Shown: piece by piece, positions 3,277 to 51,550 of the stretch
Layout of the letters: each line of letters begins with the position of its first letter
How positions within the stretch are numbered: the stretch's first letter is position 1
IMG/VR virus record: IMGVR_UViG_3300035698_017217
Coordinates: 1 to 60,186 of that record
Origin: a virus
Length of the DNA: 60,186 nt
Strand: one strand, 5' to 3'
Program-made: the position numbers and the translations under genes
Notes under the pieces: model-generated
Told to the model about the DNA's origin: nothing
Seen by the model: only the letters and a program-made list of their open reading frames with translations
Database searches by the model: none

Positions 3277-3534
3277 ATGTGGGCTGACGTTGAACCAATT
3301 GCATGTGCTATTCGGGTGTTCCATGATGGGGCTGTATATGGTGATCCGTATACGTGGGCAGCTACGATACGATATATTGATCGGAAAACTATTGAGATTA
3401 TTGGCATTACCTGTGCTCCGAAGCCTAGTGAATGGCGGGCTATCGTAGCTAGAATGAAGTGTGATGGGGTTAGTAAGATAGTATTCAGCCGTAAACGTGG
3501 TGGCAATGATGAATCTCATACGATAGATGTGTAA
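3277..3534 (+). CDS. Hypothetical 85-aa protein
   Basis: No recognised motif. It is a compact alpha/beta-looking sequence with two tryptophans and a basic C-terminus (SRKRGG). It lies after an 83-bp gap that may hold a promoter and just overlaps the next reading frame. Ribosome site weak (AAGGA about 14 bases upstream). Most likely a real small gene because it fills the space between two tightly packed genes. Confidence 0.55.
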   Translation: MWADVEPIACAIRVFHDGAVYGDPYTWAATIRYIDRKTIEIIGITCAPKPSEWRAIVARMKCDGVSKIVFSRKRGGNDESHTIDV

Positions 3535-3571
3535 GCAATGCTTACAGGCTGAACAGTTAAAAGGACGAAGA

Positions 3572-4639
3572 ATGTCTGAAAAAGAATGTGAATATCAGTT
3601 TGAAGAAATGGATAATGGTAAACACAAATGCTCATTATTTCAAGAAGATAATGGGAATAACTGTGATGGATGTATCAAAAAATTACCATTAACTGATGAG
3701 CATTTTATAGAAAAATGGAAAGATCCTCTTATTGTTTTGGATCGAACACGTACTAAGACTGATTCTATTCACAATTTGCTTGGTGGTGGTTGTGCCTTTC
3801 TTGTTGGTGGTGGTCCATCCACTAAGAAATTTGCACTAGAGAAGTTGAATTATCGTGGTGTCTTCACGATGGGTGTAAATAATGTAGCCGCTCACCCGAG
3901 GTTCAGGGCTTCCTCGTTTGTGTGTTCCGACCCACCAAAGAAATTTTCGAATAGTATTTGGTTAGATCCGCATTGTATGAAATTCGTACCATCCCCAAAA
4001 ATGACCGGTCGTAGGCAAAAATTGAGAATGAAGAAAAATGGGGTATTCTATAAATCCGACACAGGTGTTTCTGAATGTCCTAATATATGGGCATTCAAAC
4101 GGCACAGTCATCTAAGGCCAGATGAAACTTTTTTCACTGAAGAAGGAGCATTTTGGGGAAACCATAACAAGGGTGTGAAGATGACAGGAGAGAAAAAGAC
4201 AGTTTGTACCATGCTGTTGGCTATGAGGTTGTTGTACTTCCTTGGAGCAAGACGTATCTTTCTAGTTGGTGTTGATTTCCTTATGAGCCCTGGGGCTGTC
4301 TATTCGTTCGATCAAGGTAAATCAGATGGTGGTTGTGATTCCAATAATAACCAATACACCGTAGTCAATGATTGGCTATGTAAGATGGAAGATGATGATG
4401 TATTTGGTAAATTTGGGTTAGAAATTTTTAACTGTTACGAACACAGTGGATTGAGGGCATTTCCTTATGTATCATTTGAAGACGCTATTGACATAGCTAC
4501 CCAAAACGTTGAACAAGTTCCTGATTTGAAAGATTGGTACGATAAGGACGAATGCCCAAATAAAGAATGCAAAAGTTGGCATTTGCATATAGTAGATGGC
4601 AAAAAAACATGTCTTGATTGTGGAAACGTTTGGGAATAG
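3572..4639 (+). CDS. Maf/MptE-like (DUF115-type) protein with zinc ribbon
   Basis: 355 aa from ATG 3572, chosen because AGGACGA lies 5-12 bases upstream; an in-frame ATG at 3527 would overlap the previous gene. The core has AFLVGGGPS followed by GVFTMGVNNVA and SFVCSDPP, resembling the DUF115/MptE-like fold found in flagellin-glycosylation Maf proteins and in phage glycan loci. The C-terminus CPNKEC...CLDCGNVWE is a zinc ribbon. N-terminal cysteines may form another metal site. Role inferred: sugar transfer or nucleotide-sugar handling. Confidence 0.7.
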   Translation: MSEKECEYQFEEMDNGKHKCSLFQEDNGNNCDGCIKKLPLTDEHFIEKWKDPLIVLDRTRTKTDSIHNLLGGGCAFLVGGGPSTKKFALEKLNYRGVFTMGVNNVAAHPRFRASSFVCSDPPKKFSNSIWLDPHCMKFVPSPKMTGRRQKLRMKKNGVFYKSDTGVSECPNIWAFKRHSHLRPDETFFTEEGAFWGNHNKGVKMTGEKKTVCTMLLAMRLLYFLGARRIFLVGVDFLMSPGAVYSFDQGKSDGGCDSNNNQYTVVNDWLCKMEDDDVFGKFGLEIFNCYEHSGLRAFPYVSFEDAIDIATQNVEQVPDLKDWYDKDECPNKECKSWHLHIVDGKKTCLDCGNVWE

Positions 4640-9613: not shown

Positions 9614-10157
9614 CTATAAACTGTTAGAATTTGCTGCACCGCCTTGTACTAAGGAAAATTGGTATGTCAAATCGTTTCAGTTGCTTGGTCTTGGTCCTGG
9701 AACTGTTTCTAATGCCCATTCCGCATGGGATCATGGGGATAAGCACAGACTGCTACGCTTGACGCTTGTGAGGAACCCTATTGATTGGCTAGTGGCTTTT
9801 TATCAAGCAGTAAGAACAGGAAAATCGAAAGAGTTAAATGGGACGTTTGGCCCTTTGGCTACTTTGAATTTTTCTAGTATAGATGGGTTTTTTGATTCAT
9901 ATTTACATAAAGCCCAAGGTTGTGTTACCAGTTTATTCAATAATTTTGAAGCTGACATTGTGCATAAGTCAGAAGATGCACCATACGCATTGATGGATTT
10001 TACGGATACATTGGAGATACCCAAAATCATGTCTAATCAATTGTTGAAAATAAAGTTGTGTTGTACTAATGAAGAACCGATTTCTATCAGTCCTTGGGTA
10101 AGAACTGAGATAAAGAAATCCGAACAGGAGATTTTTGATCGTTATGACTACTGGTAA
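9606..10157 (+). CDS. Sulfotransferase-like protein
   Basis: 183 aa. RLLRLTLVRNPIDWLVAFYQAV is close to the 3'-phosphate-binding region of PAPS-dependent sulfotransferases (RNP..W..S.Y). The early AAPPCTKENWYVKSF segment sits where the P-loop-like 5'-phosphosulfate site occurs, though the usual Lys-Ser-Gly pattern is not clean. Inferred role: sulfation of a sugar built by neighbouring enzymes, or a degenerate relative. Confidence 0.6.
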   Translation: MINYKLLEFAAPPCTKENWYVKSFQLLGLGPGTVSNAHSAWDHGDKHRLLRLTLVRNPIDWLVAFYQAVRTGKSKELNGTFGPLATLNFSSIDGFFDSYLHKAQGCVTSLFNNFEADIVHKSEDAPYALMDFTDTLEIPKIMSNQLLKIKLCCTNEEPISISPWVRTEIKKSEQEIFDRYDYW

Positions 10158-10854
10158 ACCGAGGAAAGTTATTGTTATTCCTGCTAGAATGGATTCTGGT
10201 AGACTGCCCGGTAAAGCTATGGCGGATATTAACGGCCTACCTCTTGTGCATAAAACATATAAGGCAGCCATGAGAACAAAGGCTAATTCGGTGTTTGTCA
10301 CAGCACCAGATGATGAAATTGAAATTTATTGTTCGAATCATGGCATTCCATTCCAGAGAACAGATAGTAACCTAACCAATGGAACACAAAGATGCCATCA
10401 AGCATTAGTTCGGTTGTTTGGTGATTCTGTATCCGATTTAACAACAGTTGTGAATTGGCAAGTTGATGAGCCGTTGGTAGATCCAACATATGTTAACAGA
10501 ATGCTTACTTCAAAATTATTTGTTATACATACTCTTGTTTCATACAAAGGAATTGATTTCCCCACAAAAAATGAAGTAAAAGTTATTGTCAATGACCAAT
10601 GCACTAGATGTCATTGGTTCACACGTAACGCTGTTCTTGGTGCTGCTTTTCATTGTGGAGTCTATTCATTTCCTTGGTTTGCTCTTGAGAAAATAGTGTT
10701 GTTGGTACCAAGTGAAAAAGCAGTATTGGAATCATTGGAGCAATTGACTTGGCTAGAACATGGGTTTTCCATAAAGCCTATTAAGATGCATATAATGCCT
10801 GTTGGCATAAATACCGAATCAGATCTTGAAGAATGTAGGAGATTGTTACGATGA
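10144..10854 (+). CDS. KdsB-like cytidylyltransferase
   Basis: 236 aa. VIPARMDSGRLPGKAMADINGLPLV closely follows the nucleotide-binding start of 3-deoxy-manno-octulosonate cytidylyltransferases, and NWQVDEPLVDP corresponds to QGDEP. These enzymes activate Kdo-like acid sugars as CMP-sugars. The gene suggests the phage makes or steals a CMP-linked sugar for its own transferases. ATG 10144 preferred; a TTG at 10135 is possible with AGGAG nearer to it. Confidence 0.8.
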   Translation: MTTGKPRKVIVIPARMDSGRLPGKAMADINGLPLVHKTYKAAMRTKANSVFVTAPDDEIEIYCSNHGIPFQRTDSNLTNGTQRCHQALVRLFGDSVSDLTTVVNWQVDEPLVDPTYVNRMLTSKLFVIHTLVSYKGIDFPTKNEVKVIVNDQCTRCHWFTRNAVLGAAFHCGVYSFPWFALEKIVLLVPSEKAVLESLEQLTWLEHGFSIKPIKMHIMPVGINTESDLEECRRLLR

Positions 10855-30183: not shown

Positions 30184-31177
30184 AGACGTATTGATTAAGT
30201 TAGAGACCATTGTTCCTGGTATTACTACCGACGATGTTATTGAACAAGGGAATTGCTTTGTGTTTGTGGATGGCCAAGTGGTATCCTTCAATGACGAAGT
30301 AGCTTGTTTTGCTAAACTTGATCTTGGTTTTGAAGGAGCAGTACAAGCAAAGCTATTTTTGGGCTTGTTGCGAAAAATGACAGAAGAGATAATTGATATT
30401 TCTTTAGATGAATCTGTTATTGTTGTTAAAGGCAAGAGGAAGAAAGCAAAGATTGTTGTTGAGAATGATATTGTTCTAGGTGTTGAAGATATCGAATCTC
30501 CAGAAGATTGGAGTAAACTTGATGATGATTTTTCAAATGCGTTATCAACAACAATTCATTGTGCTAGTAAAGTAGAGTCACAATTTCTTTTGACATGTAT
30601 TCATATATGTCCTGATTGTTTGGAAGCTTGTGACAGATACCAAATAATCAAGTATCCAATTGTCATTGACATTTCTGATAATGTTTTGGTCAAAGCTACT
30701 TCATTACGTTATGTAGCTGATATGGGTATGAGTGAATTCAGTTTGACAAAAAATTGGATTCATTTTCGTAATGATGATGGTAGTGTGTTTAGTTGTAGAA
30801 TTTATAACGAAACGTTCATCAAGACCGAAAATCATTTTAACACTACTGGCGATAAAGTAGAATTCCCGAAAGACCTGAATAAAGCTATTACGACTGCTGC
30901 TATCTTCGCTACAGATTCGAATTCTGATGATGTGCTGAAGATTAAACTGACTCGTAGTAAAATGAAAGTAACTGGTGAAGGGACCAGTGGTGTTTACACT
31001 GAAGTCATACCAATTGATTATGAAGGGAAAGAGATTGAGTTCTTTATTGCACCCAAGTTTTTGTCTGAAGTGCTGAAGTACTCATATGAATGTGTTGTTT
31101 CGAAAGAAAGATTGATGGTAACTACTGACAAGTTTAAGTATGCCACTTGTTGTTGCCATGCACCATCAGGAAACTAA
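30167..31177 (+). CDS. DNA polymerase sliding clamp
   Basis: 336 aa with the repeated beta-alpha-beta pattern of beta-type clamps: Phe/Val-rich strands, FPKDLNKAITTAAIFA and a C-terminal FIAPKFLSEVLKYS segment similar to the final clamp domain. Its neighbours (loader ATPase at 35708, polymerase at 33544) complete the processivity set. Length is slightly short for DnaN, typical of phage clamps. Family assignment by pattern. Confidence 0.8.
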   Translation: MKVNREDVLIKLETIVPGITTDDVIEQGNCFVFVDGQVVSFNDEVACFAKLDLGFEGAVQAKLFLGLLRKMTEEIIDISLDESVIVVKGKRKKAKIVVENDIVLGVEDIESPEDWSKLDDDFSNALSTTIHCASKVESQFLLTCIHICPDCLEACDRYQIIKYPIVIDISDNVLVKATSLRYVADMGMSEFSLTKNWIHFRNDDGSVFSCRIYNETFIKTENHFNTTGDKVEFPKDLNKAITTAAIFATDSNSDDVLKIKLTRSKMKVTGEGTSGVYTEVIPIDYEGKEIEFFIAPKFLSEVLKYSYECVVSKERLMVTTDKFKYATCCCHAPSGN

Positions 31178-31178
31178 A

Positions 31179-32372
31179 ATGAATGGATTTTTTGATACTG
31201 ATTTTTCTAAGACTAGTCGTATGTCTAAAGTGCCTAGATGTAGAATGTGTAAGCTAGATAGAAAATGCATGTCACCAAGGATGGAACCTTATGGAAAAGG
31301 TGAAAGAAAAATCCTTGTTGTTACAGAGGCACCCGGTGAAGCGGAGGATGAGCAGAATGTTCGATATGTTGGAAAGTCATGGCAATTGTTGGACAAGATG
31401 TTTGATGAGGTCGGTTACGACTTAGAGATGGACTGCTGGGTTACGAGTGCGGTCACTTGCCGACCAATAGACAACAGAACGCCAACTAGGAAAGAGATTG
31501 ATTTTTGCCGTCCTTCGCTTCTTAATACAATTGATGAGTTAAAACCGTTTGCTGTTATTTTGATGGGAACGTCTGCTGTTGATTCGTTGCTTGGATCTGT
31601 TTGGAAAAAGGACATCGGTGGTATATCCAGATGGGCTGGTTATCAAATACCGTTGAGAGAGAAGAATATCTGGGCATGTCCAATTTTCCATCCATCGTAT
31701 GTTATACGAATGGAGAATGATGTACTTGATTTGTGGTACAAGAAGCATATCAAAAATGCAATGAAGTTGATGAGTGTGCCTTGGCCTGTTGGTCCACCTG
31801 ATTATGAAAAGATGGTAGTCAAGATACTTGACCATAAGAAAGCTGCAAAAGAAATCAATAAGTTTGTTGATTCTGGAAAGCCTGTTGCTTTTGATTATGA
31901 AACAGATCGTCTGAAGCCTGATGATCCTAGATCGAAAATAGCTAGCTGTGCTATAAGTGATGGTGTTAGAACTATTGCTTATCCATGGGAAGGTGATGCA
32001 GTACAAGCGTCTAGTGATTTTCTGAAAAGTGGTGTTCCAAAAATTGCTGCGAACATAAAGTTTGAAGAGCGATGGACGAAAGCTGTACTTGGTCATGGTG
32101 TAAACAATTGGAAGTTTGACACCATGCAAGCTTCTCATGTTTTCAATAACGAAGCTGGTATAACGTCTGTAAAATTTCAGTCTTTTATCCGTCTTGGTGT
32201 TGGTGACTATGATTCTTATATCCATCCATTTTTGTCCCAAGAAGGGCTGAACGGAGGAAATAGAGTTTTCCAAGCAGATATTGATAAGCTGCTTCTGTAC
32301 AATGGCATGGATGCAATTCTTGAATACCAAATAGCCGAACGACAGATGAAAGAAGTTGGAATCGTTTTATAA
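31179..32372 (+). CDS. UDG-like domain fused to 3'-5' exonuclease
   Basis: 397 aa from ATG 31179. Residues ~10-200: CRMCKLDRKC cluster cysteines, ILVVTEAPGEAEDEQ (UDG superfamily active-site loop), CWVTSAVTCRP and CPIFHPSY, as in family 4/5 uracil glycosylases and the UDG-like start of SPO1-type polymerases. Residues ~225-397: exo I AFDYETD, exo II AANIKFEERW, exo III LYNGMDAILEY. The polymerase domain expected next is on a separate ORF at 33544, after an HNH gene. Confidence 0.9.
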   Translation: MNGFFDTDFSKTSRMSKVPRCRMCKLDRKCMSPRMEPYGKGERKILVVTEAPGEAEDEQNVRYVGKSWQLLDKMFDEVGYDLEMDCWVTSAVTCRPIDNRTPTRKEIDFCRPSLLNTIDELKPFAVILMGTSAVDSLLGSVWKKDIGGISRWAGYQIPLREKNIWACPIFHPSYVIRMENDVLDLWYKKHIKNAMKLMSVPWPVGPPDYEKMVVKILDHKKAAKEINKFVDSGKPVAFDYETDRLKPDDPRSKIASCAISDGVRTIAYPWEGDAVQASSDFLKSGVPKIAANIKFEERWTKAVLGHGVNNWKFDTMQASHVFNNEAGITSVKFQSFIRLGVGDYDSYIHPFLSQEGLNGGNRVFQADIDKLLLYNGMDAILEYQIAERQMKEVGIVL

Positions 32373-32379
32373 ACGTGGT

Positions 32380-32389
32380 GTGAGAATAA
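32380..32389 (+). promoter_or_regulatory. Class B promoter-like motif (TGTGAGAATA)
   Basis: Lies 42 bases before the HNH gene and just after the exonuclease stop. If 32373-33543 is an intron this motif would lie inside it. Confidence 0.45.
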
Positions 32390-32431
32390 GATAGACAGTT
32401 TAAGTCAATTTTATTTTTACATGAGAGAACC

Positions 32432-33022
32432 ATGATCTGTAGAACCGATTGTGTTTTGAAAGAATGTAAAGAGTGTTGGGGTAAATTTACCACAAAGAAT
32501 AAAGATGAAAAGTATTGTTCTGCTGAATGTCGTGAAGAAGCAGAAAGAACTAAAACAATGGATCGTATAAGGAGACTTTCTGGTCCAATACTTGGTGAAT
32601 CAAACTCCAAAAAAAGAAGCCTTGCTTATTCTGATGATAGATTAGAAAAAGTTGAGTGTAAAGATGGAAAATGGGATATGTGGGTACGCAAAGATAGAAA
32701 AACTGCTTTTGTAAGAAAAGTAGTTGTTGTATTAGAAAAAGATAAGGGCAGTGAACTTACAAGGGGTGAAAAACAACGAATTCGTTTTAGAGATGGAAAC
32801 CGATTAAATACTCATATAGATAATTTGTTGTTTTCAAAAACAGAATATAAATTTAGAGTATGTAAAGTGTGTGGTGATGAGAAGTCAGTTCTCAAAGTCC
32901 ATTATGATACTTTTCAAGGAGTGTGTAGAAAATGTCATATTAAAATTGTTGGGCGTGGTCATAGAAAGCAAGATGCTGAGCAGGTAGTTGGAAGTAATAA
33001 TAAGGAGAATCAAAATGTCTAA
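32432..33022 (+). CDS. HNH endonuclease-like protein (possibly inactive)
   Basis: 196 aa. N-terminal CKECWGKFTTKNKDEKYCSAEC is a zinc finger typical of phage HNH proteins; IRFRDGNRLNTHIDNLLF aligns with the HNH core (HxDGNxxNNHIDNL) but the first catalytic His is Arg/Phe. C-terminal CKVCGDE...CRKCH is another zinc site. Could be a degenerate homing enzyme or a DNA-binding relic. It sits between the two halves of the polymerase. Confidence 0.8.
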   Translation: MICRTDCVLKECKECWGKFTTKNKDEKYCSAECREEAERTKTMDRIRRLSGPILGESNSKKRSLAYSDDRLEKVECKDGKWDMWVRKDRKTAFVRKVVVVLEKDKGSELTRGEKQRIRFRDGNRLNTHIDNLLFSKTEYKFRVCKVCGDEKSVLKVHYDTFQGVCRKCHIKIVGRGHRKQDAEQVVGSNNKENQNV

Positions 33023-33524
33023 GATAATCACCATAGAAGAATTGATAGTTGCTTTTGAAAAGAAATGTAATTTTGAAATACCAGTAGAAGGAATTTATGA
33101 GTGTGCTGTTGATGCGGTACAAATAAATAAACACAAAGATTACAAACGATCCATAATGTTGGATAAACTTAATACATGTTTAGATGGTTTCTGTTGTGAT
33201 TTTACAGATATTCGTCATATGATACATGAATGGCCGACTTTAGTGCAATGGAAAAAAGAAGGCTTGCAGACGATGAGGGATAAAATACATCAAGAAGAAA
33301 GAGGTAACAATGTAAGATGTAAGGTCAAAGTAAAATCAAAAACAAAAATAGAAATAGAATCTGGATTATCTAGAGCGTCTATGGCTAAAGAAGTTGCTTT
33401 GAAAAAACTACTCAAAGAAAAAGAAAAACAACATAAAGATGATAAAAAACAAATTGAATATTTATTGCAAATTTGTGAGAATCAAAAAGATGAAATTGCA
33501 CGTCTAAAAAAACGTGGAAAATAA
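33015..33524 (+). CDS. Hypothetical 169-aa protein with C-terminal coiled coil
   Basis: Start 33015 follows TAAGGAGAATC. N-terminal 70 residues helical with four Cys; C-terminal ~60 residues are a Lys/Glu coiled coil (KEVALKKLLKEKEKQ...). Lies with the HNH gene in the insert between exonuclease and polymerase ORFs. Confidence 0.65.
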   Translation: MSKIITIEELIVAFEKKCNFEIPVEGIYECAVDAVQINKHKDYKRSIMLDKLNTCLDGFCCDFTDIRHMIHEWPTLVQWKKEGLQTMRDKIHQEERGNNVRCKVKVKSKTKIEIESGLSRASMAKEVALKKLLKEKEKQHKDDKKQIEYLLQICENQKDEIARLKKRGK

Positions 33525-33543
33525 TTAGTTAAAGTAGCAAACT

Positions 33544-34884
33544 ATGAAATTCAAAACAAAAGACGCTTACAAATTGATGCATGATGGAGCATTGGCGTTG
33601 GCTCAAGTTGAGTCTGATGGTATGCGAATCGATGTTAAACGAATGGATCGTGCCATTGTTGAAACTGGTGAACGTATTACCAAAATGACAGCAGAGTTGA
33701 AGGAAGATGAGATTTGGAGAACATGGAAAAAGCTATTTGGAAAAAAGTCCAATCTTGGTAGTACTCACCAGTTAGGCAAAATCTTGTTTGAGGAACTTGG
33801 TTATGAGCCTAGATCTAGAACGAAAACAGGTAAGCCACAAGTCAATGAAGAAAACTTACGGTCTATTGATTTGAAGTTCATTGATGATTATCTCACCATT
33901 AAGAAATTGATGAAGCTACAATCTACTTACTTAAAGGGTATACGAAAAGAAGTAGTTGATGGGTTTCTTCGACCATCGTTCAATTTGCATCTTACCAAAA
34001 CGTTTCGGTCCAGTAGCAACAATCCAAATTTTCAGAACATACCAATCAGGGACAAAGAAATTGGCAAGTTGATTCGTTCGTGTTTCATACCAAGGGATGG
34101 GCATGTGTTGGTAGAAGTCGATTACGGTGCATTGGAGTTTCGGATTGCTGCATCGTTTTGGAAAGACAAGAACATGGTTGAGTATGCGTCTGATCCTGAT
34201 CTTGATATCCATAGAGACATGGCTGCTGAATGCTATTGCATGAAAAAGTCTGAAGTCACGAAAGAAGCTAGATTCTATGCAAAGAATCAGTTCGTATTTC
34301 CTACGTTGTATGGTTCGTACTACGTCACTACTGCTAGAGATCTGTGGACTGCTATGCAGAAAGAGAAACTGAAAACAGCAGATGGTGTTCCTCTTCAGCA
34401 GCATATGAGAAAGAAAGGTATCACTCAGCAAAATTTTGAATCACATATCAAAAAGGTAGAAGAATCCCTAAACGAACGATTTGCAACGTGGAGTGATAGA
34501 AAAGAAAAGTGGTGGAACAAGTATCAGAAAACTGGTGGCTTTGATTTGCTAACAGGCTTTCATATAGATGGCGTCTATTCTAAAAACCAATTGATGAATA
34601 CACCCATTCAAGGACCAGCATTCCATTGCTTGTTATGGTCGTTGATAAAAATGGTGAAGTGGCTGAATAAGAAACAGATGCGAAGTTGTGTCATTGGTCA
34701 GATTCATGATAGTATCGTGGCAGATGTGCATGTTGATGAATTGAAGACTTATCTTAGGAAGATAAAAAATGTGATGACTGTTGATGTGCGTAAGCATTAT
34801 AAATGGATCAGAACACCATTGGAGATCGAAGCTGAAGTGGCAGAAACGACGTGGTTTGATAAGAAAGAAGTTGATATCCCGTAG
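33544..34884 (+). CDS. Family A DNA polymerase domain
   Basis: 446 aa. Motif A VEVDYGALEFRIAA, O-helix region ARFYAKNQFVFPTLYGSY (Arg, Lys, Tyr-Gly), and motif C VIGQIHDSIVADVH, where the usual HDE is HDS. NPNFQNIPIRD and RTKTGKPQVNEENL are also standard. It has no exonuclease or UDG part; those lie upstream at 31179. No clear ribosome site precedes the ATG, which leaves open that it is joined to the upstream ORF by splicing or is translated by coupling. Confidence 0.9.
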   Translation: MKFKTKDAYKLMHDGALALAQVESDGMRIDVKRMDRAIVETGERITKMTAELKEDEIWRTWKKLFGKKSNLGSTHQLGKILFEELGYEPRSRTKTGKPQVNEENLRSIDLKFIDDYLTIKKLMKLQSTYLKGIRKEVVDGFLRPSFNLHLTKTFRSSSNNPNFQNIPIRDKEIGKLIRSCFIPRDGHVLVEVDYGALEFRIAASFWKDKNMVEYASDPDLDIHRDMAAECYCMKKSEVTKEARFYAKNQFVFPTLYGSYYVTTARDLWTAMQKEKLKTADGVPLQQHMRKKGITQQNFESHIKKVEESLNERFATWSDRKEKWWNKYQKTGGFDLLTGFHIDGVYSKNQLMNTPIQGPAFHCLLWSLIKMVKWLNKKQMRSCVIGQIHDSIVADVHVDELKTYLRKIKNVMTVDVRKHYKWIRTPLEIEAEVAETTWFDKKEVDIP

Positions 34885-34957
34885 AGTTAATTTTGGTAAA
34901 CCAACCGCGATAATTTCAATGTGAGTGGTGATTGTAGGTTCGAATCCTACCGGGATA
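34875..34957 (+). tRNA. tRNA-like RNA A (83 nt)
   Basis: 7-bp acceptor TATCCCG (34875-34881)/CGGGATA (34951-34957), perfect T arm GTAGG-TTCGAAT-CCTAC (34934-34950), but the D arm is poor and no standard 5-bp anticodon stem with a 7-base loop can be drawn. The 5' acceptor strand overlaps the last codons and stop of the polymerase gene. No encoded CCA. Confidence 0.45.
34906..34915 (+). promoter_or_regulatory. Class B promoter-like motif inside tRNA-like A
   Basis: CGCGATAATT resembles the class B core. It could drive tRNA-like B, or simply be part of tRNA-like A. Confidence 0.3.
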
Positions 34958-34976
34958 GTTTTATGAAAGAATTGGT

Positions 34977-35172
34977 TATCTTGAGGCGAGAGGTACACGC
35001 TAAGACTACGAAAATGACCCTAATTGTTACGGCTGATCGGTCTCTGGTGACAGAGATGAATATCCAAAGCGGATCGGCTCCTAGTGAGTTCCATGCTTGA
35101 GTACTCATGATGATGGAAACTGGTAGCACGTAGTTACATGGGTTATCGGGGGTTCGAATCCCACTAAGATAA
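34977..35172 (+). tRNA. tRNA-like RNA B with ~115-nt insert
   Basis: Acceptor TATCTTG (34977-34983)/TAAGATA (35165-35171) with one wobble, D stem GCG/CGC around a GG-containing loop, T arm GGGGG-TTCGAAT-CCCAC with one mismatch, discriminator A. A 7-bp stem GACTACG (35004-35010)/CGTAGTT (35129-35135) takes the anticodon-stem place and encloses two further hairpins: GCTGATC/GATCGGC with an inner TCTCTG-GTGA-CAGAGA, and TTCCAT/ATGGAA. This looks like a tRNA with an inserted domain. Confidence 0.5.
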
Positions 35173-39513: not shown

Positions 39514-40839
39514 ATGGATATTGCTGTTATTGGAACTGGTTACGTTGGGCTTGTTACTGGTGCATGTTTGGCTAACACTGGTCATCATGTGACTTGTATT
39601 GACAAAGATATTAAAAAGATATGGAAGTTGAACAACAGACAGATTCCAATCTATGAGCCTGGACTGAAGAAGATAGTAGACAAAGCTTTTGATAAAGGAA
39701 CAATTGCTTTTTCAACTGATATTGCGAATGCTATCAATAACTGTAATGTGATTTTCATATGTGTTGGTACACCATCGGATCATAAAAGTAGAGCAGATCT
39801 TTCGTCATTGATAGCTGTTGTTGGTTCAATAAGTTTTCAAGATCAGCATACGAAACTAGATCAGAAGACCATCATAATCAAAAGTACTGTTCCTGTTGGA
39901 ACAAACGAAAAGATGTTTTTGTTGCTAGACAAAAAACACAATGTCATCAGTAATCCGGAATTCCTGCGTGAAGGACATGCCTTAGATGATTGTACGAATC
40001 CCGATAGGATCGTAGTAGGCACCAGAAGCAAAGGAGAGACAGAATTGATGGAGAGAATTTATAAAGAAACTATTTCTGATTTTTCTCCGTTGGTTTCAAT
40101 GTCTCCCGAAAGTGCTGAAGTCACTAAGTATGCCGCCAATGGTTTTCTCGCTACGAAAATTTCGTACATGAATGAGATCGCCAATTTTTGTACTGCCGTT
40201 GGTGCTGATATTGATGAAGTAAAGAAAGGGGTAGAAGGTGATTCTAGGATCGCTGGGGCATTCTTAAACGCTGGCATCGGTTATGGGGGATCTTGCTTCC
40301 CAAAAGACATTAGAGCCTTGTGGCGGAGTGCAGAGGAAGTAGATCGACCTATGGTGATACTTGGAACCGTCGATATTATCAATGAGAGGCAAAAGGTTGT
40401 TTTGATGAAACCTTTGTTAGATCATTTTGACAATAATTTAGAAGGTAAGCGTATTGCTATATGGGGATTGGCTTTCAAACCCGACACAGATGATATACGC
40501 GAAGCTCCTTCTTTGGACATAGTTGAAAGACTGCTGGACCATAGAGCAAATGTAGTAGTGCATGATCCGCAAGCTTTAGAAAATTTCAAGGAGTTGTTTG
40601 GGGAAAGAATAGAGTACTGCGATAATAAGATGGAAGCAGTAAAAGGAGCAGATGCTTTAGTTATTGTTACTGAATGGGATGAGTATAAAAGGGCTCATGT
40701 GGATTCAGTTCGTTACGTTATGAACGATGCTGTTATATTTGATGGTCGAAACGTGTTTGATCCAGAATCTATGTACGATTTTATGTATTACAGCATCGGA
40801 AGAAAAACTGTTTATGGAGAAACTGATGAGAGTAGCTAA
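39514..40839 (+). CDS. ugd: UDP-glucose 6-dehydrogenase
   Basis: 441 aa, normal family length. AVIGTGYVGLVTGACLA (NAD-binding), FICVGTPSD, STVPVGT, NPEFLREGHA, SAEVTKYAANGFLATKISYMNE, GYGGSCFPKD with the catalytic Cys and GLAFKPDTDDIREAPS are all present, so it is predicted active. It oxidises UDP-glucose to UDP-glucuronate using NAD+. It sits in the recombination/replication block rather than the sugar island, so its product may decorate DNA or feed a phage-specific pathway. Confidence 0.95.
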   Translation: MDIAVIGTGYVGLVTGACLANTGHHVTCIDKDIKKIWKLNNRQIPIYEPGLKKIVDKAFDKGTIAFSTDIANAINNCNVIFICVGTPSDHKSRADLSSLIAVVGSISFQDQHTKLDQKTIIIKSTVPVGTNEKMFLLLDKKHNVISNPEFLREGHALDDCTNPDRIVVGTRSKGETELMERIYKETISDFSPLVSMSPESAEVTKYAANGFLATKISYMNEIANFCTAVGADIDEVKKGVEGDSRIAGAFLNAGIGYGGSCFPKDIRALWRSAEEVDRPMVILGTVDIINERQKVVLMKPLLDHFDNNLEGKRIAIWGLAFKPDTDDIREAPSLDIVERLLDHRANVVVHDPQALENFKELFGERIEYCDNKMEAVKGADALVIVTEWDEYKRAHVDSVRYVMNDAVIFDGRNVFDPESMYDFMYYSIGRKTVYGETDESS

Positions 40840-51078: not shown

Positions 51079-51313
51079 TTGTAGTAATTTATGAAACACC
51101 GTTCGACGGGATCTCGCAACCCGTTATTGAAGTTTGCGGCAATGACCTAGACGTTAATACTCGCTCCGCCCAGAGCATAAGGCCAGGGCAACAGGCCAGT
51201 AGCTACGGCTAAGTATATGGTGGAACGGTGGAAGTAGACCGGGTATTACCATTCCCGGCTGACCTGGGTGATTGCGGGAGAGCCCCAGTAAGAGTGACAA
51301 AAATCCCGACCAT
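51079..51313 (+). ncRNA. GC-rich structured RNA candidate upstream of tRNA-like C
   Basis: 235 bases without a coding gene and clearly richer in G+C than its surroundings. Hairpins visible: ACGGG (51106)/CCCGT (51120), CCGGG (51239)/CCCGG (51254), CTGGG (51264)/CCCAG (51284), CGGGA (51275)/TCCCG (51304). Together they suggest a folded RNA of unknown class. Confidence 0.45.
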
Positions 51314-51434
51314 GCCCTGGTAGCTCAATTGGTTGAGCGGCGGAAACAAGATCCGCGTCACCTGCAATAGGGAAGTACAACTTCGCAGGGGCGGCTATAG
51401 TAACGCTTTTGAGGGTTCGAATCCTTCCCAGGGC
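51314..51434 (+). tRNA. tRNA-like RNA C (121 nt) with 50-nt insert
   Basis: Acceptor GCCCTGG/CCAGGGC perfect (51314-51320/51428-51434); canonical D arm GCTC-AATTGGTT-GAGC (51323-51338); T arm GAGGG-TTCGAAT-CCTTC (51411-51427). GCGGA-AACAAGA-TCCGC (51340-51356) could be an anticodon arm with CAA, but position 33 is A not U, and 54 bases lie between it and the T arm. A GGCGG duplication flanks the extra piece. Confidence 0.6.
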
Positions 51435-51446
51435 TTTTATCTATAT

Positions 51447-51550
51447 GGCTCTGTAGAAATAATTGGCAAAATCACATGGGCGACCATGCCCATGCGGGTT
51501 TCTGTTCTAGATAAGGAAATCCTGTGTTGGTTCGAATCCAGCCGGAGCCG
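51447..51550 (+). tRNA. tRNA-like RNA D (104 nt)
   Basis: Acceptor GGCTCTG/CGGAGCC with one wobble, T arm GTTGG-TTCGAAT-CCAGC. In the anticodon place is a 7-bp perfect hairpin CATGGGC-GACCAT-GCCCATG (51475-51494), longer than normal, then a 7-bp variable-arm-like hairpin GGGTTTC/GAAATCC (51496-51522). D arm weak. Not a standard tRNA. Confidence 0.5.

Follow-up and report, generated by a model that had tools for sequence, protein, structure and literature searches.

tRNA frames without an ordinary anticodon arm in a virus genome, and a family of small inserts in phage tRNA genes

Genes and features of the locus

The window, which is the whole 60,186-base virus record IMGVR_UViG_3300035698_017217, contains four tRNA frames, all on the plus strand. 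They lie in two pairs, RNAs A and B just 3' of a DNA polymerase ORF, and RNAs C and D at 51 kb in a block without long ORFs (Table 1). The polymerase is split over two ORFs that match consecutive parts of PHROG 17, and two ORFs without a Pfam match separate the halves (window 31140-34884). Judging by sequence, the phage seems to carry several sugar-modification genes. The 235 nt directly upstream of C have no long ORF and look rich in GC hairpins by eye; this segment folds no better than shuffles and has no Rfam match.

Table 1. Positions in the window of the four RNAs, their parts and the genes mentioned in the text
Feature	Position	Strand	Description
Radical-SAM protein	1101-1817
Sialyltransferase	3527-4639		weak match
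Cytidylyltransferase	10135-10854
DNA polymerase, first ORF	31140-32372		PHROG 17
DNA polymerase, second ORF	33544-34884		PHROG 17
RNA A	34875-34958	+	tRNA frame; overlaps the stop of ORF 33544-34884
RNA A acceptor	34875-34881 / 34951-34957	+	TATCCCG/CGGGATA; discriminator G 34958
RNA A anticodon-place loop	34909-34924	+	16 nt, on stem ACCGC/GTGGT
RNA A T arm	34934-34950	+
RNA B	34977-35172	+	tRNA frame; 147 nt from D stem to T stem
RNA B acceptor	34977-34983 / 35165-35171	+	TATCTTG/TAAGATA
RNA B proposed anticodon-place stem	35004-35010 / 35129-35135	+	GACTACG/CGTAGTT; 118 nt between arms, one G-U pair
RNA B GTGA hairpin	35041-35056	+	inside the proposed stem
RNA B T arm	35148-35164	+	4/5 pairs
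UDP-glucose dehydrogenase	39514-40839
Segment upstream of C	51079-51313		235 nt
RNA C	51314-51435	+	acceptor GCCCTGG/CCAGGGC; 4-bp D stem; Rfam tRNA 41.3 bits
RNA C hairpin	51340-51356	+	5 bp, 7-nt loop AACAAGA, no U33
RNA C variable region	51357-51410	+	54 nt
RNA C T arm	51411-51427	+
RNA D	51447-51550	+	acceptor GGCTCTG/CGGAGCC; weak D stem
RNA D first hairpin	51475-51494	+	7 bp, 6-nt loop
RNA D second hairpin	51496-51522	+	long
RNA D T arm	51526-51542	+

The four tRNA frames

The T-loop string GGTTCGAATCC occurs exactly in A, B, C and D and nowhere else in the window. Each RNA has an acceptor stem paired at 7/7 positions (G-U allowed) and a D loop with GG, and the tRNA hallmarks of a 7-bp acceptor and a T arm with a standard loop are present in 4/4. 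Together, the string, the acceptor and the GG give four matches in the real window and none in 200 dinucleotide shuffles, and a looser T loop gives four matches against a shuffle mean of 0.025. The tRNA frames are real, and the original prediction of four odd tRNA-like genes in one genome is borne out, with correct coordinates for A, B and the 51-kb pair.

The D stem is clear in C and weaker in A, B and D. Against the Rfam tRNA model with relaxed filters, C reaches 41.3 bits (cut-off 29) and A reaches 19.4 bits, and ARAGORN and Rfam at default settings and gathering thresholds report none of the four in the window. ARAGORN also finds no ordinary tRNA gene in the window, and every tRNA-shaped gene found in the contig is non-standard; tRNA finders miss such remodelled tRNA-like genes. 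Rfam families other than tRNA give no match for A-D. The 3' ends do not encode CCA, and the inserts, compared by eye, have no visible mutual similarity that would point to the shared mechanism originally suggested.

RNA A begins within the polymerase gene. Its first 10 nt (TATCCCGTAG; TATCCCG TAG) overlap the last polymerase codons and the stop, and the stop TAG forms nucleotides 8-10 of A. The acceptor strand of A had been described as common with the polymerase stop region, and the overlap, with the stop at 34882-34884, agrees with this. A and B have the polymerase ORF on one side and the following same-strand ORF on the other; no terminator-like site was found there, and promoter and terminator scans were uninformative. 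The 16-nt loop of A lacks U33 at the expected place.

RNA B is the least perfect frame, with a T stem of 4/5 pairs, A in place of U8, and a D stem of 3-4 bp. The frame proposed for B is real by the shuffle test, imperfect as it is. The large domain said to be enclosed by a stem fares less well: the 7-bp stem and the hairpins within it, among them the GTGA one, exist, but a closing helix of equal length is found in 225/2000 insert shuffles (11%), which is chance level. The free fold (-53.5 vs -46.3 with the proposed stem) is 7 kcal/mol better and favours another closing stem, TGACCC/GGGTTA. The insert structure of B is not significant against shuffles (p 0.08; whole RNA z -0.73). The case for structure is stronger in the inserts of C (p 0.03) and D (p 0.004) than in that of B.

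Anticodon region and excision test

None of A-D has a normal anticodon arm as encoded. In the excision test, one segment between the D arm and T arm is removed, and the remainder is searched for a 5-bp stem with U33 and a position-37 purine in a 7-nt loop. Of 200 shuffles each, 77 (A), 41 (B), 99 (C), and 185 (D) reach the best score. The single-excision model is not supported for A-D, as the scores are no better than those of shuffled inserts, and an archaeal-type tRNA intron is rejected because excision yields no canonical tRNA. After excision, C has the outer stem pairs GCG/CGC and the loop CTATAGT, with U33 and G37 rightly placed and CTGCAA in the insert; the anticodon stem has 3/5 pairs, the other two being mismatched.

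Several other candidates were dropped. AUUUCAA in A and CUACGAA in B were considered as Glu and Arg anticodon loops, and such 7-mers are frequent by chance. The CTACG..CGTAG TTACAT of B resembles the ends of the Flavobacterium-type inserts described below (stem, then UUAC), and its removal gives no anticodon arm. The tmRNA model RF00023 matches only the T arm of B, at 9.7 bits vs a cut-off of 47, and tmRNA identity is rejected for A-D.

Extended tRNA frames in other genomes

No usable relatives of the phage or of A-D were found by distant BLAST, terminase and polymerase tblastn, back-translated scans, or an exact pattern. Only remote RecA and helicase homologues came up. In Rhodothermus phage RM378, the helicase match listed first, no tRNA is annotated and the finder reports no extended frame. 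As no relatives were found, the search turned to the architecture.

The architecture scan of viral contigs looked for GGTTCGAATCC placed 56-86 nt after a standard D arm, and gave at least 120 matches. Among the matches listed, 79 distinct frames have a 7/7 acceptor, a 5/5 T stem, and a 4/4 D stem. Removal of one insert leaves a canonical tRNA in 44 of these 79 listed frames, while the shuffled-insert control (30 rounds) restores 2.0 on average and never more than 4. The removable inserts are mostly 35-60 nt. The other 35/79 listed frames give no canonical tRNA by the strict excision test. Extended tRNA frames are common in viral contigs. A parallel scan of cellular genomes found archaeal contigs whose inserts can be removed, at 37/38 and at other points of the loop; this is what known archaeal introns would give and serves as a positive control.

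The commonest insert family, named here after its CAGCAA motif, has 36 restored members with a median insert of 46 nt, 19 anticodons, and 21 distinct anticodon stems, and includes one archaeal outlier (L184). As a rule the insert splits the anticodon stem in its 5' strand, following position 28 or 29 and frequently between ACG and UA. Both sides of the restored anticodon stem co-vary in all five pairs, which is not independent evidence because restoration is a membership criterion. The hairpin of the insert and the CAGCAA motif are outside the scoring of the restoration test. This 7-bp hairpin has both-side changes in 7/7 pairs (53 cells), and 0/500 shuffles score as high. Its covariation score is 0.667, and shifting the partner by one column lowers it to 0.27 or less. 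CAGCAA follows the hairpin, and 33 sequences, which were collected with a loose form of the motif, all share its first C, its G, and its second C.

The family is found in several loci (L006, L036, L044, L054, L068, L073, L081, L089, L123-L130, L133, L136) and in cultured phages (L259-L261). Cronobacter phage GAP32, Serratia phage BF, and Erwinia phage pEa_SNUABM_50 have a tRNA-Lys(UUU) with the CAGCAA insert, and the tRNA-Glu(UUC) of BF and pEa_SNUABM_50 contains the insert variant ACGGCA. The Lys gene lies at L260:5928-6049 in BF and at L261:5931-6053 in GAP32. The Lys anticodon stem is CGACA/TGTCG in BF vs GGGCA/TGCCC in pEa_SNUABM_50, with the strands parted by the insert. The BF Lys gene is annotated as tRNA-Pseudo, and the SNUABM_50 Glu gene as tRNA-Phe(aaa); a hypothetical protein is annotated across the GAP32 locus.

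From its sequence features, the CAGCAA family looks like a new, very small intron (mini-intron), and the insert is probably excised. The alternative is an unspliced hairpin that bulges from the anticodon stem. A literature search that covered few subscription papers or preprints gave no description of such inserts. The family has conserved, covarying inserts of about 45 nt in the anticodon stems of phage tRNAs that serve many amino acids, cultured phages included; it is weightier than the window RNAs and probably the most important observation of this analysis. If the inserts are spliced, phages or their hosts would own a small tRNA intron and a splicing route absent from the literature searched, and the reaction would handle introns far smaller than known self-splicing introns. 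If they are not spliced, the hairpin stays as a bulge on the anticodon stem, and such tRNAs would work in that form or serve as decoys.

The covariance model of the CAGCAA insert, with filters off, has no match at A-D. RNAs A, B, and D fall outside the CAGCAA family, since neither excision nor the covariance model places them in it. C has hints of membership in its three outer anticodon-stem pairs, its U33 and the CTGCAA string, which fits C(A/T)GCAA, but these are too few to assign it either way.

Other kinds of insert were also seen. A second family in bacterial tRNA genes consists of a stem, AAAUUACC..GGUCAA, a stem, and UUACUUC, and occurs at L150, L177, L191, L251 (Flavobacterium), L187 (Fluviicola), L246, and L255 (Hymenobacter); one insert of 41-45 nt is exactly removable in L150, L177, L191, L187, and L251. 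Closing-stem inserts whose 3' end resembles UUAUC/UUACU are present in tRNA genes of L147:3999-4531 (Leptolyngbyaceae), L040, L071, and L212, and the cyanobacterial contig L147 has four of them in a row. Anticodon-loop inserts of L029:2928-3095 and 3871-4022, L125:2123-2270, and L061:9010-9183 hold a T arm or a whole tRNA-like fold, an arrangement that amounts to a tRNA nested in a tRNA.

Apparently related non-decoding tRNA frames occur at L067:8173-8299, L216:1255-1382 (Yersinia massiliensis), and L183:5729-5855 (Paraburkholderia). They have a small hairpin at the anticodon place and a long structured variable region, and AAGGTTCATAACCCAG and ATCTCATGCGG are common to L067 and L216. Two Bacteroidetes loci, L240:7702-7897 and L247:4521-4711, contain tRNA frames of 191-196 nt, which is about the size of RNA B, and GCACCGAAAT..AAAGTAGGGAAGC is common to their large inserts.

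Interpretation of the four RNAs

The favoured reading, held tentatively, is that A-D may be tRNA-derived non-decoding RNAs like T4 species 1, with A and B cut from the polymerase transcript. They would keep the acceptor/T-arm half and the elbow and have lost a usable anticodon arm, so that as encoded they would not be translation adaptors. Host tRNA-processing enzymes may cut A and B from the DNA polymerase transcript, with RNase P making the 5' end, and trimming and CCA addition making the 3' end. Expression and processing are inferred. The tRNA-like part might be the working half of the RNAs and, by analogy, might serve as bait for elbow- or acceptor-binding proteins or for tRNA-cutting enzymes; tRNA-attacking defence nucleases are possible targets. 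Consistent with a non-decoding role are the excess of frames over the shuffles, the lack of an ordinary tRNA gene and of a restoring excision, and the structured inserts of C and D. Such frames also recur elsewhere, as in the 35/79 that fail the strict test among the matches listed and in the insert sequence common to L067 and L216. The imperfect frame of B and the decaying-looking features of A count against it, and pseudogenes would fit these as well; so does the lack of sequence relationship to T4 species 1 beyond the T arm count against it.

A possible but rather unlikely explanation is that A-D are precursors of working tRNAs and lose the extra part of their anticodon region at the RNA level, which is also the likely course for the CAGCAA genes of other phages. 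The restoration of 44/79 extended viral frames, among the matches listed, against a shuffle mean of 2.0 agrees with this, as do the outer pairs, the loop with U33 and G37, and the CTGCAA of C. In contrast, many shuffles match the best excision scores of A-D, the CAGCAA covariance model misses them, and C would retain two mismatched pairs in its anticodon stem. It is doubtful that the window RNAs, among which C is the best candidate, are divergent representatives of the phage and some bacterial tRNA genes with a structured anticodon-stem insert of about 35-60 nt that would be excised.

It is likewise unlikely that the four RNAs are decaying tRNA pseudogenes with acquired insertions. Phages readily gain and lose tRNA genes, and the missing U33 in A and C, the T-stem mismatch and missing U8 in B, and the weak D stem in D are the kind of changes that decay would give. 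However, the 7-bp acceptor and the exact T-loop string are intact in 4/4 and change is confined to the anticodon region, and uniform decay would not leave the same half intact four times. The inserts of C and D also fold better than chance, and annotators label insert-bearing genes as pseudo-tRNA too, as in Serratia phage BF.

Least probable is that A and B are processing marks, in which an RNase P cut before 34875 would strip the stop codon (34882-34884) from the polymerase message and lower polymerase late in infection, each transcript yielding either RNA A or a normal message; the stop within A, the position of the pair before the next same-strand ORF, and the failure to find a terminator-like site there fit this, but C and D overlap no gene in like manner.

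Comparison with known systems

Bacterial Y RNA (YrlA; partner Ro/TROVE) combines tRNA mimicry with a non-decoding domain. This identity is rejected for A-D, with no TROVE gene in the contig, which is possibly incomplete, and no Rfam match; RtcB and T4-type RNA ligase were likewise not found in this possibly incomplete contig. Group I introns in bacterial tRNA genes resemble A-D in placing extra sequence in the anticodon region. They measure some 200 nt or more, and inserts of 31-147 nt are too short for them. The expectation that the RNAs are no known group I intron agrees with Rfam, which has no group I core match for A-D up to E 10, and a group I intron is rejected. According to a 2014 review, all phage introns then known are in protein genes (PMC3984707). 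The 'T-large' RNA was rejected as a parallel, because it is a group II intron in circularly permuted form (PMC8637638).

The CAGCAA tRNA genes of GAP32, BF, SNUABM_50, and metagenomic phages are similar to A-D in that the frame is interrupted between the D and T arms, in the anticodon arm. Unlike A, B, and D, they become canonical tRNAs with U33 and five pairs once the insert is taken out, and the insert holds a covarying hairpin and CAGCAA.

T4 species 1 RNA (rnaC, 139 nt) of the T4 tRNA cluster is annotated as a small stable RNA. Stable tRNA-like RNAs have been known in phages since T4 species 1, and to our knowledge they have no settled function. Like A-D, T4 species 1 contains GGTTCGAATCC and lacks an ordinary anticodon arm, and a 7/7 acceptor spans its last 92 nt. 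In contrast to A-D, it belongs to an operon of ordinary tRNAs, lacks a standard D arm, and has an extra 5' domain, and the similarity between T4 species 1 and the window RNAs is confined to the T arm.
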